This document shows positions 6,232 through 13,537 of a DNA stretch of 64,000 nt, one piece after another. Made by a program: the position numbers and the translations under genes. The notes under the pieces are model-generated. The model was not told the DNA's origin, did no database searches, and saw only the letters and a program-made list of their open reading frames with translations. Source of the stretch: Nisaea sp. (lineage in GTDB: Bacteria > Pseudomonadota > Alphaproteobacteria > Thalassobaculales > Thalassobaculaceae); contig NZ_JAEPQA010000002.1 in the NCBI RefSeq assembly GCF_017640745.1, positions 1 to 64,000 on the forward strand. The letters are read 5' to 3'. Every line of letters begins with the position of its first letter. Position 1 is the first letter of the stretch.

Positions 6232-8922
6232 TCAAAGAGACAGCGCGCGCCTCAGGATCGCATCCTGTTCGCGCTCGTGGCGCTCGATCGATCCGCCGGC
6301 CGCGACCGGCAGGGGCGGGCGGGCGATGACCGGCGCTGTCCGTGAAAGCTCGATTCCGCCGGCCGCGAGCGCGTCGCGGACGAAATGCCAGGCGCCCTGG
6401 TTTTCCGCTTCCTCCTGGAGCCAGACGAACTCGGCCTTTCCGAACGGGGCGAGGGCGCGCCGCACGGCCTCGAGCGGGAACGGGCAGATCTGCTCGACAC
6501 GGATCGGAAGAACGGTTTCTTCCAGTCCGGCCTCTATTCGACGCCGGTCGAAATCGTAGAAGATCTTGCCGGAACAGAGCACGACGCGCCGGACGCGCTC
6601 AGGCCGGGGGCAGGGCGCGGCGATGACCGGTTCGAAGCCGGTCTTCTCGCCCATCTCTTCGAGCGTCGAGACCGCGTCGCGCGAGCGCAGCAGCGATTTC
6701 GGGGCGATGAGGAAGAGCGGCTTGCGCCAGGGCGCCCTGATCTGCCGCCGCAGCACATGGAAGAGATTGGCCGGCGTGCTCGGGTTGGCGAGGATCAGGT
6801 TGCCGCCGGCATAGAGCTGGGCGATCCGCTCGATCTTGGCCGAGGAATGATCCGGCCCCTGGCCTTCCAGCCCGTGAGGAAGAAGGATCGCCAGGCCCGA
6901 GCGGAGCCGCCATTTCGCCTCGGCGGAGACGATGTACTGGTCGACCGCGATCTGCGCGCCGTTCATGAAGTCGCCGAACTGCGCCTCCCAGAGCGTGAGC
7001 TGCATCGGATCGAGCAGGCTGTGCCCGTATTCGAAGCCGAGCACGCCATATTCCGTCAGCGGACTGTTGATCAGCTCCAGCATTCCGGGCTTGTCCACGG
7101 CTGCGGCGAGGGGAATGCAGGTCTCGCCGGTCGCCATGTCATGCACCCGGGAATGACGCTGGGTGAAGGTGCCGCGCACCGCGTCCTGGCCGGAGAGGCG
7201 GACCCGCGAGCCCTCCCCCAGCAGACTGGCGAAGGCGAGCGCCTCGGCGGTGGCGAAATTGATGTCCGTGCCCGACCGGATGGTCTCCGCGCGCGCCTCA
7301 TAGAACCTCCGGACCTTCGGATGGGCGTCGATACCATCGGGGATCCGGCTTGCGGCCAGTCCGATCTCGCGAAGCCGTTCCACCGGGACCCCGGTTGTCA
7401 CGGGCTGCAGTAGGGTTTCTTCGGTGGCCGCCGTCTGCGCGGTCCACGCACCGTTCTGGATGCTTTCCTCGTTCGGCATCACGTCCGCCGCCCGATCGAA
7501 GCCGTCCTGCAGGCGGATGCGGTAGGCCTCGGCGGCGGCGTCGGCGGCGGCCAGAAGATGCGGTGCCCTGTCCCGGAACCTCTCTGCGGCGATCTGCCGG
7601 AGAGTCGGGTGGCTGTCGATCCGCTGCCACATGCCGGGCTGGGTGAAGCGCGGTTCGTCAAGTTCGTTATGGCCGTTGCGGCGGTAGCAGACGAGGTCGA
7701 TCACGATGTCCCTGCCGAACCGGGCCCGCCAGTCCATCGCGAGCCCGGCGACCCGCGCCACGGCCTCCGTATCGTCGCCGTTGACGTGCAGGACCGGCGC
7801 GCCGCCGAGTTTCGCGACGTCGGTGCAGTAATGCGCGCTCCGGCCTTCCGAGGGCATCGTGGTGAAGCCGATCTGGTTGTTGACGACCAGATGGATCGAG
7901 CCGCCAGCGCTGTAGCCGTCGAGGCCGCCGAGCTGGAGCAGTTCGGCACTCAGACCCTGCCCGGCGAAGGCGGCGTCGGTATGGGCGAGGATCGGGAGGG
8001 TCGCGCCCGTTCCGCCGTCGTCCCGGCGCGTCTTCGCGCGGGCATAGCCGAGGGCAACCGGCGCGACGACCAACAGGTGGGAGGGATGAGGAAGGATGGT
8101 CAGCGCCAGGTTTTGCCCGCCGCTTTCAGAGCGGCCCACATAACCGAGATGATAGGGAACGTCCCCGGTGAAGGCGGCGCCGTCCGAAAGGTCGCGGCCC
8201 ATCAGTTCGGCGGCCAGGGTAGCGGGGTTCTTGCCGAAACCGACCGCGAGCGTCGCGAGGCGCCCCCGGTGCATGCCGCCCATCACGACCTCCTTCACGC
8301 CGTGGCCGGGGGCGGTGCGCAGCAGTTCCCGCAGCAGCACGATGGAGGCCTCCGCCCCCTCGCTGCCGAAGCGCTTCTTCGCCGTGAACTTCCTGTGCAT
8401 GAAGGTCTCGAACGCGTCGACGAGCGCGATGGAGTCGAGGGTTGCCGCCAGCGCCGCTTCGGTGAGCGGCGTCGAGACCGCCTTCTCGAAGGCCTCGTGG
8501 AGCCAGGCCCTTTCCGCCTCGTCCTGCAAGTGGCTGGCCTCGAGCGCGGCGGGCCCGCAATAGACCGACCGCAGCAGGGTGTCGGCCTCGGCGAGGGGAC
8601 GCTGACGCGTCTCGCCGGCGAGGCTCAGCCCGGCGCTCTGCCGGCCTGCCGCTGCGATCCGGTCCCTCAGCCGCGAAAGGACCGGGTCGCGGTGCTCGTT
8701 CGGCGCAAGCGGGTCCAGGTCCGCCTCCAAATGGCCGAAGCGCCGGTAGGCATCCTGAAGATCGTGTGCCAGGGCCGAAGCGCCGGATGCGGCATTGGAG
8801 CCGCCGCCGTCGAGGCTGTCGAAATGGATCGCCAGGTCGGCGGGGACCGAGTGGCGGTCGCGCCGGTAGCGGGCATAGAGATCGAGGAAATAGGCGTTGT
8901 CTTCCCCGGAAAGGGTGCTCAT
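6232..8922 (-). CDS. 2-oxoglutarate dehydrogenase E1-like thiamine diphosphate enzyme
   Basis: Thiamine-diphosphate enzyme of the 2-oxoglutarate dehydrogenase E1 family, 896 residues, somewhat shorter than typical SucA (about 930-990). Family motifs are intact: HRGRL, GDVPYHLG, VVNNQIGFTT, CYRRNGHNE, FTQRHSRVHD, FEYGHS and WEAQFGDF with LLPHGLEGQGPDHSSA. The conserved HGDAAFAGQG is changed to HTDAAFAGQG. The N-terminus carries the short E1o segment (DNAYFLDLYARYRRD) that normally docks onto E2. No E2 (sucB) or E3 (lpd) gene is beside it, unlike the usual sucAB operon. It could therefore be a second, diverged copy or a 2-oxoglutarate decarboxylase-like form. Conversion of 2-oxoglutarate is known for the family; its place here is inferred. 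Confidence 0.85.
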   Translation of the reverse strand: MSTLSGEDNAYFLDLYARYRRDRHSVPADLAIHFDSLDGGGSNAASGASALAHDLQDAYRRFGHLEADLDPLAPNEHRDPVLSRLRDRIAAAGRQSAGLSLAGETRQRPLAEADTLLRSVYCGPAALEASHLQDEAERAWLHEAFEKAVSTPLTEAALAATLDSIALVDAFETFMHRKFTAKKRFGSEGAEASIVLLRELLRTAPGHGVKEVVMGGMHRGRLATLAVGFGKNPATLAAELMGRDLSDGAAFTGDVPYHLGYVGRSESGGQNLALTILPHPSHLLVVAPVALGYARAKTRRDDGGTGATLPILAHTDAAFAGQGLSAELLQLGGLDGYSAGGSIHLVVNNQIGFTTMPSEGRSAHYCTDVAKLGGAPVLHVNGDDTEAVARVAGLAMDWRARFGRDIVIDLVCYRRNGHNELDEPRFTQPGMWQRIDSHPTLRQIAAERFRDRAPHLLAAADAAAEAYRIRLQDGFDRAADVMPNEESIQNGAWTAQTAATEETLLQPVTTGVPVERLREIGLAASRIPDGIDAHPKVRRFYEARAETIRSGTDINFATAEALAFASLLGEGSRVRLSGQDAVRGTFTQRHSRVHDMATGETCIPLAAAVDKPGMLELINSPLTEYGVLGFEYGHSLLDPMQLTLWEAQFGDFMNGAQIAVDQYIVSAEAKWRLRSGLAILLPHGLEGQGPDHSSAKIERIAQLYAGGNLILANPSTPANLFHVLRRQIRAPWRKPLFLIAPKSLLRSRDAVSTLEEMGEKTGFEPVIAAPCPRPERVRRVVLCSGKIFYDFDRRRIEAGLEETVLPIRVEQICPFPLEAVRRALAPFGKAEFVWLQEEAENQGAWHFVRDALAAGGIELSRTAPVIARPPLPVAAGGSIERHEREQDAILRRALSL

Positions 8923-9133
8923 TCAATGCCTCTTATGTAGGCGTTGCAGGGCGGGAGAGCGACGGGAGAGAAGATCCCGGCCATCGACGCCTCCGACTTT
9001 AGAAATCCAAGGCCGCTCCTGGCAAGAACCGGGTGAGGGTCAGCTCTTTCCAGCCGACCGGCAATCCCCGGCGGTGCGTCCTGTTGCCACGCCGGGAGAG
9101 AGATCTATCCCGCGACCTGCTAGCCTTGGAACA

Positions 9134-10396
9134 ATGGCCGGGGAATTATCGGCCGGTAGGGAAAGCGGAGTGCAACGGGTGCAACTTGCAGAGCATGATG
9201 AAGGATCCGGTGGGTCCTCCGTGAAACCGGCCGAGGTCGTCACGGACGCGCACGCTTTGCCGGTAGAGGAAACGCTCGCCCGTCTGGACGTCGCTTCGCA
9301 GGAAGGGCTGAGCGCAGACGAGGCCGGACGCCGCAGAAGACTGTACGGCCCGAACAGGCTGGAAGAGCGCCATTCCAGGAGTGCGCTCGGCATCCTGCGC
9401 GACCAGTTTGCCAGCCTGATTGTCGCGCTCCTCAGCGTGGCGACGGCTGTTTCCTTTGCCTTCGGGCATTGGGTGGAAGGGCTGGCGATCGTCGTCGTCA
9501 TCCTGCTGAACACCGCGCTCGGATTCTTCACCGAACTGAGGGCCGTGCGCTCGATGGAAGCGCTGCGCCGCCTCGGAGTCGTGCTGACCAAGGTGCGCCG
9601 CGACGGGTCGGTGGCGGAGATCCCGGCCGGCGATCTGGTCCCGGGCGACATCGTGCTGCTGGAAGGCGGCGACATCGTCAGCGCGGATCTCCGGCTAATC
9701 GAAGCCTCGAAGCTGCGCTGCGACGAGTCGGTGCTGACCGGGGAGTCGCTGCCGGTCGAGAAGGGGGTGGGTCCGGTCGCCGGTGACGCCCCGCTGCCGG
9801 AACGCTCGAACATGGCGTTCCAGGGAACGGCGGTCACCAAGGGGACGGCGGAAGGTGTCGTCGTCGCCACCGGAATGGCGAGCGAACTCGGGCGCATCGC
9901 CGCGCTCGTCGATGAGGCGGAAGATACCGCAACGCCGCTCGAAAGACGCATCGACGGTCTCAGCCGGCAGCTCGTCTGGGCAACGGTGGTCCTGACCGCG
10001 ATCATCGGTCTCGCCGGGATCCTCACCGGCAAGCCCACTTTCCTGATGATAGAGACCGCCATCGCGCTTGCCGTCTCGGCAGTGCCGGAGGGACTGCCGA
10101 TGGTGGCGACCCTCGCGCTCGCTCGGGGCATGTGGCGCATGGCGCGGCGCAATGCGCTGATCGAGCGTCTTGCAGCGGTGGAGACTCTGGGTGCGACGAC
10201 TGTCATCCTGACCGACAAGACCGGCACCCTGACCGAGAACCGGATGACGGTCACGGTCGTGGCGCTGCCGGATGGCGATCTCGCTGTCGGCGAGCGCCTG
10301 CCCGATGCCTCGGGCAATGCGCTGCTGCGCCGGCTGCTGGAGGTCTGCGTACTGTGCAACAACGCCTCCATAGGACCTTCTGGCGACAGCGGGTAG
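9134..10396 (+). CDS. P-type cation ATPase, N-terminal part, ends at in-frame TAG
   Basis: First 420 residues of a P2-type cation-transporting ATPase. Visible are the N-terminal cation ATPase domain, membrane helices M1-M4 with PEGLP in M4, the actuator-domain TGES (about 202-205) and the phosphorylation site DKTGTLT (Asp at about 361). The frame stops at TAG 10394-10396, early in the nucleotide-binding domain, and continues without any frameshift in the following gene. Together the two parts make a normal-length pump of about 920 residues. The start is uncertain: ATG 9134 or GTG 9221, the latter giving an N-terminus more like relatives. On its own this piece lacks half the ATP-binding domain and M5-M10 and should be inactive. 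Confidence 0.8.
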   Translation: MAGELSAGRESGVQRVQLAEHDEGSGGSSVKPAEVVTDAHALPVEETLARLDVASQEGLSADEAGRRRRLYGPNRLEERHSRSALGILRDQFASLIVALLSVATAVSFAFGHWVEGLAIVVVILLNTALGFFTELRAVRSMEALRRLGVVLTKVRRDGSVAEIPAGDLVPGDIVLLEGGDIVSADLRLIEASKLRCDESVLTGESLPVEKGVGPVAGDAPLPERSNMAFQGTAVTKGTAEGVVVATGMASELGRIAALVDEAEDTATPLERRIDGLSRQLVWATVVLTAIIGLAGILTGKPTFLMIETAIALAVSAVPEGLPMVATLALARGMWRMARRNALIERLAAVETLGATTVILTDKTGTLTENRMTVTVVALPDGDLAVGERLPDASGNALLRRLLEVCVLCNNASIGPSGDSG

Positions 10397-10420
10397 GAGG
10401 CGAAGGCGATCGGCGATCCG

Positions 10421-11908
10421 ATGGAGGCGGCCCTGCTCTCGCTCGCCGCGAAAGCCGGACTTGAGCGCGACGAGTTGCTCGCTGCTATGCCGGAGATGAG
10501 CGAGGAGGCTTTCGATCCGGAACTGAAGATGATGGCGACGATCCACGAGGCGGCCGGAGGCCATTTCGTCGCAGTGAAAGGGGCGCCGGAAGCGGTTCTG
10601 GAACACATCGTGAGCGTCGCGTCTCCGGACGGTGCCGCCGGTCTGTCCGAAGTGGAGCGGGCTGCGTGGCGGGAGCGAAGTGCGGAGCTTGCCGGGAGGG
10701 GCCTCCGGGTGCTCGCGCTCGCGGCCAAAAGGGCTCGTGCGGCCGGTGAGCCGGTTTACGGAGAACTGACGCTACTTGGTCTTGTCGGCCTCCAGGATCC
10801 GCCACGCCGGGATGTCGCCGGTGCCATCGCCGCCTGTCGGCAGGCGGGCATCCGGGTCATCATGGCGACCGGCGACCACGCGGTGACGGCGCAGCAGGTC
10901 GCCGAGGCGGTCGGCCTCGGCGTTCAGGACAGGGAACTGGTCGTCGACGGCCGGGATCTCCCGCCGCTCGACGCCATGTCCGCTTCTGAGCGGGAGCGTT
11001 TCCTCTCGGCCGGAATCTTCGCCCGCGTCAGCCCGAAGCAGAAACTGGACCTGATCGCGCTGCATCAGGGCGCGGGCGACGTCGTTGCGATGACCGGCGA
11101 CGGGGTGAATGATGCGCCGGCCCTCACCAAGGCCGATATCGGCGTTGCCATGGGGCAGCGCGGCTCTCAGGTGGCGCGGGAAGCGGCGGACATGGTGCTG
11201 CGCGACGACGCCTTCGCCTCCATCGTCGCCGCGATCGGCCAGGGCCGGGTCATCTTCGCCAATATCCGCAAGTTCATCGTCTATCTGCTGTCCTGTAATC
11301 TGAGCGAGATCATGGTCGTCGGGCTCGCATCGCTCTCCGGCATGCCGCTGCCGATCCTGCCGCTGCAGATCCTCTATCTGAACCTTGTGACCGACGTGTT
11401 CCCCGCTTTCGCGCTCGGCGCCGGGGAGGGCGAGGCCGACGTCATGGAGCGGCCGCCGCGGAACCCGAAGGAGCCGCTGCTCGCAAGGCGGCACTGGATC
11501 ACCATCGTGAGCTTCGGGGCGGCGATCACGGCGTCAACGCTGGCCGCCTTCTACCTCGCGATGACGTTGCTCGAAATGGACCCGGAGCAGGCGGTCACCA
11601 TCGCTTTTCTCACGCTGGCGCTGTCCCAGCTCTGGAATGTCTTCAACATGCGGGAGCGGGGGACCGGCTTCCTGCGGAACGAGATCACCCGGAACCTCTA
11701 TGTCTGGGCGGCCATCGCCTGGTGCCTCGCCCTGACGGTTGGCGCGGTCTACATGCCGGGCCTCGCCGATATCCTGAGCCTCTCGCCGCCGGACATGGAG
11801 GGCTGGATGCTGGCCGTCGGTCTCAGCCTCGTGCCGTGGCTGCTCGGCCAGCTGGCGAAGCTCGGGCCGCGCAAAAAGAGAGCGACCGGAAATGTTGCCG
11901 AAGGCTAG
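10421..11908 (+). CDS. P-type cation ATPase, C-terminal part (same frame after TAG)
   Basis: Remaining 495 residues of the ATPase interrupted at 10394. It starts at the first ATG in the frame, inside the GDPMEAALL motif of the nucleotide-binding domain, and contains the rest of that domain, the hinge motif TGDGVNDAP (about 225-233) and membrane helices M5-M10 with NLVTDVFPA in M6. The substrate is a cation, but the motifs do not fix which one; relatives include Ca2+ and Na+/K+-type pumps. An AGGAGG overlaps the stop codon 20 bases before this ATG, which is too far for good initiation at ATG but well spaced for a rare ATC start at 10409. The pair is most simply a nonsense-disrupted pseudogene. 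Confidence 0.8.
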   Translation: MEAALLSLAAKAGLERDELLAAMPEMSEEAFDPELKMMATIHEAAGGHFVAVKGAPEAVLEHIVSVASPDGAAGLSEVERAAWRERSAELAGRGLRVLALAAKRARAAGEPVYGELTLLGLVGLQDPPRRDVAGAIAACRQAGIRVIMATGDHAVTAQQVAEAVGLGVQDRELVVDGRDLPPLDAMSASERERFLSAGIFARVSPKQKLDLIALHQGAGDVVAMTGDGVNDAPALTKADIGVAMGQRGSQVAREAADMVLRDDAFASIVAAIGQGRVIFANIRKFIVYLLSCNLSEIMVVGLASLSGMPLPILPLQILYLNLVTDVFPAFALGAGEGEADVMERPPRNPKEPLLARRHWITIVSFGAAITASTLAAFYLAMTLLEMDPEQAVTIAFLTLALSQLWNVFNMRERGTGFLRNEITRNLYVWAAIAWCLALTVGAVYMPGLADILSLSPPDMEGWMLAVGLSLVPWLLGQLAKLGPRKKRATGNVAEG

Positions 11909-11947: not shown

Positions 11948-13537
11948 ATGATCCTGACTTTCTGCGGCGCCGCCGGAACCGTGACCGGGTCCTGCTACTG
12001 GATCAGGACGGACCGGTGTCAGTTCCTCGTCGATTGCGGCATGTTCCAGGGCTCGAAGACGCTGAAAGAGCTGAACTACGGAAGCTTCCCGTTCGACCCG
12101 GAGAAGATCGACTTCGTACTGCTGACGCATGCCCATATCGACCATTCGGGCCTGATCCCGAAGCTGGTGAAACAGGGCTTTTCCGGCCCGATCTTCGCGA
12201 CAAGAGGCAGCATCGATCTCCTCACCTACATGCTGGCCGACAGCGGCTCCATTCAGGAGATGGAGGTGGAGCGGCTGAACCGCCGCAACGCCCAGCGCGG
12301 CCGCCCGCCTGTGACCCCGATCTACGGCAAGGAGGATGCACAGACGGCGATGGAGCACTTCTCCGCCGTCGAGTACGACAGCTGGCGCGAGGTCGGCGAC
12401 GGCGTCCGCGCCCGGTTCTGGAATGCGGGGCATATTCTCGGCTCAGCCTCGATCGAGGTCGAGGTCTCGACCGGCGAGCGTGGCGGAAGACTCTCCCGGC
12501 TGCTTTTCTCCGGCGATATCGGCCCCGACCGCAAGCTGCTCCATCCCGATCCGGAGGCGCCGGAGAACTGGGACTGGATCTGCTGCGAGGCGACCTATGG
12601 CGGACGGCAGCGCGAGGACGTCGGTCCCGAACGCCGCCGGAAGGTGCTTGCCGAGGAGGTGAACACGGCACTCGCGCGGGGCGGCAACCTGCTGATCCCG
12701 GTATTTGCCGTCGAGCGGACGCAGGAGCTGCTGCTCGATCTCGGCACGCTCTTCGACCGGGGGACGATCCCGGAGGCGCCGGTCTTCCTCGACTCGCCTC
12801 TCGCGATCCGGGCGACGGAGGTGTTCGAGAAGAACGCGGCCATGCTCGAGGACATGCCGGCCAACGGGGACGGTTTCCGGCGGCCGAACATCCGTTTCAC
12901 GGAGACGGTGGACGAGAGCAAGCGCATCGCCCGGGTGCATGGCGGGGCGATCATCCTCGCCGGCAGCGGCATGTGCGAGGCGGGCCGCATCCGCCATCAC
13001 CTGAAGCAGAATCTCTGGCGTTCCGACGCGACGGTCCTGCTGGTCGGCTACCAGGCGCCGGGAACGCTCGGCGCCATCCTCGCGGACGGCGCCGAGGCGG
13101 TAACGATCTTCGGTGAGGAGCTTCGCGTGAAGGCGGCGATCCGGCAGATCGACGTCTATTCCGGCCATGCCGACGGCGAAGAGCTGGTGGACTGGCTCAC
13201 CGACCGGCTGCCGGTGAAGTCCGGGATCTTTCTCACCCATGGCGAGGAAGAGGCGCTCGCGGCCATGCGCGACGCGCTGGAGGCGAAGGGCGTGGAGCCC
13301 GAACGCATCCTGATCCCGAAGCTGGACGATGTGGTCGATCTCTCCGGCGGCCGTGCGGTCTTCCGGCAGAAGCAGGCGGTCCGGCGGCTCACTCCGGAAG
13401 CGGTGCGCGGTCCGGACTGGCACAACGAGCTGGCGGAGTTCTCCCTCCGTCTCAGGGCCGAGCTGGAGGCCGCGGCGGACGAGAAGTCGCGCAAGAAAAT
13501 CATGCGCCGGGTGATGCGGGCTCTCGAGGGGGATTGA
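11948..13537 (+). CDS. MBL-fold beta-CASP ribonuclease/metallohydrolase
   Basis: Metallo-beta-lactamase-fold RNA-processing hydrolase of the beta-CASP group, 529 residues, cytoplasmic. The zinc motif HAHIDH lies at 61-66, further ligands at NAGHILGSA and FSGDIG, and the beta-CASP region holds GSGMCEAGRI and the C-terminal YSGHADGEE. This is the layout of YSH1/CPSF73-like bacterial proteins such as TTHA0252. It follows the split P-type ATPase by 39 bases on the same strand and may be co-transcribed with it. The RNA substrate is unknown. MBL/beta-CASP proteins beside P-type ATPases are a recurring pairing in my recollection of proteobacterial stress clusters, but that is not shown by this sequence. 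Confidence 0.9.
   Translation: MILTFCGAAGTVTGSCYWIRTDRCQFLVDCGMFQGSKTLKELNYGSFPFDPEKIDFVLLTHAHIDHSGLIPKLVKQGFSGPIFATRGSIDLLTYMLADSGSIQEMEVERLNRRNAQRGRPPVTPIYGKEDAQTAMEHFSAVEYDSWREVGDGVRARFWNAGHILGSASIEVEVSTGERGGRLSRLLFSGDIGPDRKLLHPDPEAPENWDWICCEATYGGRQREDVGPERRRKVLAEEVNTALARGGNLLIPVFAVERTQELLLDLGTLFDRGTIPEAPVFLDSPLAIRATEVFEKNAAMLEDMPANGDGFRRPNIRFTETVDESKRIARVHGGAIILAGSGMCEAGRIRHHLKQNLWRSDATVLLVGYQAPGTLGAILADGAEAVTIFGEELRVKAAIRQIDVYSGHADGEELVDWLTDRLPVKSGIFLTHGEEEALAAMRDALEAKGVEPERILIPKLDDVVDLSGGRAVFRQKQAVRRLTPEAVRGPDWHNELAEFSLRLRAELEAAADEKSRKKIMRRVMRALEGD

Follow-up and report, generated by a model that had tools for sequence, protein, structure and literature searches.

A single in-frame TAG in a P2A-like P-type ATPase gene of Nisaea sp., probably a very recent nonsense mutation

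We focus here on an in-frame stop codon, TAG at 10394-10396, which forms codon 409 of a P2A-like P-type ATPase gene on the + strand (9170-11908) of a stretch of Nisaea sp. DNA of 64,000 nucleotides, referred to below as the window. The most likely explanation, to which we give a probability of about 0.65, is a very recent nonsense mutation in this gene. An error in the sequence ranks second, and a functional split of the pump or read-through of the stop is unlikely. The window comprises bases 1-64000 of contig C22 in a draft genome (G000; 4,501,325 bases in 83 contigs, 97.23% complete), and the main comparison is with a congener, G004. As we read it, one pump gene has recently been lost, or one base has been misread, in one genome, which in itself matters little and does not look like a new way of reading genes. 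The parts of the gene are as follows.

9170-10396, + strand: N-half of the P2A-like ATPase gene, codons 1-408 plus the TAG, with Cation_ATPase_N, E1-E2_ATPase, PEGLP and DKTGTLT
10373-10405, + strand: variable, gap-prone linker of the nucleotide-binding domain, residues 402-412, judged by gaps in homologues and by the G004 model
10394-10396, + strand: in-frame TAG, codon 409; 0 of 69 distinct homologues have a stop here
10395-10400, + strand: AGGAGG, an ordinary codon by-product by its occurrence counts and codon phase
10397-11908, + strand: C-half, codons 410-912 plus its own TAG stop, with GDPMEAALL, KGAPE, TGDGVNDAP and M5-M10
10421-10423, + strand: ATG, the first in-frame start after the stop, inside GDPM and 20 nt after AGGAGG

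The upstream frame is that of an ORF (8897-10396) closed by the TAG, and the same frame runs on beyond it, without an indel, to a second TAG at 11906-11908. Codons 1-408 (9170-10393) and codons 410-912 (10397-11905) are in one frame, and no further stop or frameshift occurs within the 912 codons; alignment with the G004 orthologue suggests that the gene starts near GTG 9170. TGES, PEGLP and DKTGTLT lie 5' of the stop, and GDPMEAALL, KGAPE, DPPR, TGDGVNDAP, CNLSE and NLVTD lie 3' of it. An earlier note on this DNA had described a P-type ATPase divided by an in-frame TAG, with both halves in the same frame and no indel, TGES and DKTGTLT in the N-part and GDPMEAALL and TGDGVNDAP in the C-part; the ORF reading and the motif positions agree with this description in full. 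Furthermore, the two halves match successive stretches of the same P-type ATPase profiles (Pfam, NCBIfam), which, together with the one unbroken orthologue in G004, establishes that the continuation past the stop is real.

Judged by its sequence, the gene product, read through the stop, would be a P2A-like cation pump. It carries DKTGT, TGES, TGDGVNDAP and the N-domain GDPxE, and has the ten-helix layout by profile. Residues 33-898 align with Listeria LMCA1 (lmo0841, PDB 6zhf; E 8e-155), and there are also matches to SPCA1 and SERCA. The read-through protein thus has its full length, motifs and domain order in common with the P2A-type Ca2+-ATPases (Listeria LMCA1, SPCA1/PMR1, SERCA), whereas the window gene differs from all of these in its one in-frame TAG within the nucleotide-binding domain, and from the PMR1, SERCA and PMCA types also in scoring under the NCBIfam equivalog cut-offs: 610.7 bits for TIGR01522 (cut-off 798.3), 552.9 bits for TIGR01116 (cut-off 703.4) and 453.7 bits for TIGR01517 (cut-off 507.05). 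In view of these scores, calcium is no more than its likely cargo. A search for a plasmid copy of the pump gave a single weak match covering 6% of the query.

The earlier note had favoured a recent nonsense lesion, and this preference is supported by an intact syntenic orthologue, the lack of any other lesion, constraint on the gene and the position of the stop in a variable loop. First of all, the G004 orthologue is open over 912 codons, with 84% identity, and the genes for 2-oxoglutarate dehydrogenase and a beta-CASP hydrolase flank the pump there in the same order and within the same 40-kb stretch. The wider alignment took in 70 near-full-length homologues with identities of 48% or more, the duplicates L048, L056 and L109 having been excluded beforehand, and later removal of L161 (within L054) left 69. 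These 69 distinct homologues are all free of stops between residues 20 and 895. The comparison with close relatives that had been proposed as a check thus shows an open frame at this place in both the syntenic orthologue and the wider set. In a sample of 385 genomes of the class, 53 contain a match (E <= 1e-150), and among the 60 matches listed only the window gene has a stop inside its body; the homologue in G003, a genome of the same genus, has a TGA at position 905.

Interrupted P2 pumps do exist elsewhere, at other places in the gene, as a few broken loci indicate. L079, L086, L096 and L103 have broken matches and failed the length filter of the alignment, while L022 and L024, genome hits that are also broken, were not entered. 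The frame of the former four changes at other places than the window stop, with in-frame stops in one L086 piece. The pieces of L079, L086, L096, L103 and L022 that lie in different frames represent real frameshifts, errors or pseudogenes.

Second, the stop sits in a poorly conserved segment of the nucleotide-binding domain. Its column is gapped in 38 of the 69 homologues and the two preceding columns in 51 and 59 of them, and the nearly invariant GDP[MTL]E starts six residues after the stop column. The intact G004 protein as modelled by AlphaFold (15-sequence alignment A1; mean pLDDT 72.0, pTM 0.65; poor at residues about 166-254, 305-334 and 645-678) has residues 402-412 in a coil flanked by two short strands. 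Its pLDDT drops below 50 at 406-409 and is higher to either side. Residues 1-908 of the G004 and window proteins align without net length change, which places codon 409 within the modelled loop.

Third, both halves of the gene show constraint, which rules out an old pseudogene. Relative to G004, dN/dS is 0.188 in the N-half (dS 0.597) and 0.180 in the C-half (dS 0.537). Amino-acid changes unique to G000 and to G004 number, with four outgroups, 20/13, 14/16, 15/15 and 18/11 in the N-half and 16/19, 17/13, 17/23 and 17/12 in the C-half, with no clear sign of acceleration in G000 on either half. Among sites that are invariant in the other five sequences, none of 191 in the C-half has changed in G000 (2 of 193 in G004), and at the 58 C-half columns that do not vary among the 69 homologues G000 is likewise unchanged. 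The neutral expectation is 0.25-0.30 per site over the whole branch, about half of dS, so that about 100-127 changes would be expected at these 191 sites since the split from G004. Neutral evolution of the C-half can thus have lasted no longer than about 3% of the branch. In the N-half, 6 of 154 such sites have changed in G000 (1 of 149 in G004), which speaks slightly against perfect constraint there; these changes, and the interruption of another Nisaea P2 pump by an amber codon, described below, count against a young lesion.

It had been argued earlier that the motifs on both sides look undecayed, and that a pseudogene would therefore have to be young. This argument is strengthened by the absence of other lesions, the constraint on both halves and the 191 unchanged C-half sites. 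Lack of decay would, however, follow equally from a sequencing error or from continued translation of the C-half, and the 3% bound is compatible with all of these alike. The comparison thus suggests a lesion that arose within the last 3% or so of the branch, or a C-half that is still made, or an error at the stop.

If the stop stems from an error of sequencing or assembly, a possibility that the earlier note had listed as well, a sense codon stands at this position in the true genome and the gene is intact. This fits a draft in 83 contigs and a C-half without any decay. It also fits the uncommon codons directly 5' of the stop, which could mark a poorly called stretch: codons 399-408 (10364-10393), with ATA, GGA, CCT and TCT, are 7th from the bottom among 902 windows ranked by codon commonness, a run that may reflect loop drift, a mutation cluster or local error. 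On the other hand, the stop is the sole accepted break among 156 orthologue pairs on the 289-kb contig, so that errors are uncommon on this contig, where a single one may still have occurred. In addition, it lies in the least constrained loop, as is expected of true mutations, whereas errors have no reason to favour a loop. We thus consider an error rather unlikely.

The pairs derive from the G004 contig that bears the orthologue, 156 of whose 264 ORFs have an orthologue on C22; six of them, including the ATPase gene, were flagged. Besides the ATPase, five G004 ORFs were thus flagged on G000, and seven G000 ORFs were flagged on G004, and these twelve were set aside by eye. Nine of the twelve were viewed, and the in-frame stops shown look like reading before the start or in the wrong frame, which argues against an assembly full of errors. 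The two-frame cases 27141 and 160492 were displayed without sequences, and 233788 (G004), 5577 and 9040 (G000), unviewed, were taken as short or antisense ORFs.

Continued production of the C-half could come about in more than one way. In re-initiation, ribosomes would stop at the TAG and restart at a downstream ATG by means of the AGGAGG at 10395-10400, and the two polypeptides would form a split pump. AGGAGG overlaps the stop by two letters, without its T, and an in-frame ATG follows at 10421, 27 nt from the first base of the stop; the constrained C-half and the location of the break in a loop would also suit such a scheme. However, 20 nt separate AGGAGG from this ATG, and no start lies at the usual Shine-Dalgarno distance after the stop. 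The ATG is, moreover, inside the GDPM motif, so that GDP would be missing from the restarted product. AGGAGG in this phase is also ordinary. It occurs 49 times in the window (31 on the + strand and 18 on the - strand), and 86 of the 88 sense copies inside 229 contig ORFs have the same codon phase as the copy at the stop, in which a codon with AG at its end is followed by GAG and then by one with G at its start. Phase statistics and spacing together rule out AGGAGG as an evolved ribosome site. The local RNA fold around the stop is average (z 0.51 and -0.05), and no homologue split at this site was seen in the homologue sets. The Shine-Dalgarno core pointed out in the earlier note is thus present and does overlap the stop, but it is a by-product of ordinary codons and badly spaced from the ATG. 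Coupled re-initiation likewise involves an in-frame UAG with a constrained downstream frame, from which the window gene departs in its poor Shine-Dalgarno spacing. Overall, we regard a restart as very improbable.

In read-through, UAG would be decoded at some rate to yield the full-length pump. Nearly any residue would be tolerated where the stop lies, and the single-contig genome G001 encodes a second Nisaea P2 pump that is interrupted by one in-frame TAG within the nucleotide-binding domain, both of which would favour this explanation. The decoding machinery argues against it. RF1 is present in G000 (518.7 bits, cut-off 423.25), the PylS model gives only 30.5 bits there (cut-off 178.15), and a CUA anticodon is found in none of 44 tRNA genes in G000, an incomplete list that is without tRNA-Ile(gat), and in none of 44 in G001. 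Survey of 289 kb of G000, 327 kb of G004 and 400 kb of G001 shows a coding-like frame continuing in frame after 7 of 169 TAG, 32 of 527 TGA and 8 of 137 TAA stops. TAG-continued genes are thus not in excess (7/169 versus 40/664 for TGA and TAA together; p = 0.46). Two of the seven TAG cases are ATPases, three are pairs of different genes by Pfam (MotA/ExbB-ExbD, ABC transporter-aconitase and M24-M20 peptidase), and two are pairs without a Pfam match. When G001 was compared with the retrieved contigs, homologues turned up for no more than 2 and 1 queries, too few to be informative. By eye, the stop contexts in the window and in G001 share no motif. Taken together, the tRNA sets, RF1, PylS and the lack of a TAG-continued excess rule out genome-wide amber recoding. 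The window gene resembles pyrrolysine or amber-suppressor systems in its in-frame UAG and constrained downstream frame; in contrast to them, its genome has no PylS above the cut-off and no CUA tRNA among those found. We thus give read-through at this stop very little credence.

The G001 pump (G001:C1:3569061-3571688; L015, stop at nt 2935) is a paralogous P2 pump, open apart from its single in-frame TAG. It stands at about 38-40% to the window pump and 68% to L013. An inner TAG occurs in 2 of 10 long P2 pumps in five Nisaea genomes and in none of 57 listed outside the genus (p = 0.020, a post hoc test); without the index gene, the counts are 1 of 9 and 0 of 57 (p = 0.14). The wider question is whether two such pumps in one genus are a coincidence, and we take them as losses that happened to coincide in a pump family that is dispensable. 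It is highly doubtful that Nisaea P2 pumps with a single amber in loops of the nucleotide-binding domain are still made, by low-level UAG read-through or coupled re-initiation. Were this so, the amber codon would hold pump amounts low or conditional, with the window and G001 pumps as two instances.

Under the preferred reading of a very recent nonsense mutation, translation would end after codon 408, within an indel-tolerant loop, with RF1 presumably terminating at the UAG. The truncated product would comprise M1-M4, the actuator domain and the segment with the phosphorylated Asp. It would be without most of the nucleotide-binding domain and M5-M10, and thus could not pump. Any C-half product would come only from leaky read-through or weak re-initiation. 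The same genome keeps another P2-type pump without an inner stop (G000:C8:28606-31194), and the loss may thus be tolerated. As expected of a young nonsense pseudogene, the close relative G004 has an open copy, the gene itself carries no further lesion, and its constraint is not relaxed. Young bacterial nonsense pseudogenes have one stop, are otherwise intact and constrained and have an open orthologue in a relative, so that nothing about the window gene is distinctive. The portions of the literature brought up by a search on interrupted P-type ATPases and stop-codon read-through contain no bacterial P-type ATPase split by a stop.

Two further observations concern the surroundings and affinities of the pump. 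The neighbouring beta-CASP metallo-hydrolase (11948-13537) has its best NCBIfam match in type VII CRISPR Cas14, at 332.9 bits versus a cut-off of 800, and is probably a relative of RNA-processing beta-CASP enzymes. As a conserved partner of the pump it was rejected as uninformative, since no more than 3 of the 76 homologous loci contain one of its homologues at E <= 1e-30. Finally, the Thalassobaculum fulvum pump, at 64%, is nearer to the window pump than are those of Nisaea nitritireducens and N. denitrificans, at 55-56% (loci L007, L008, L009 and L010 in this comparison), which hints at gene exchange or paralogy.
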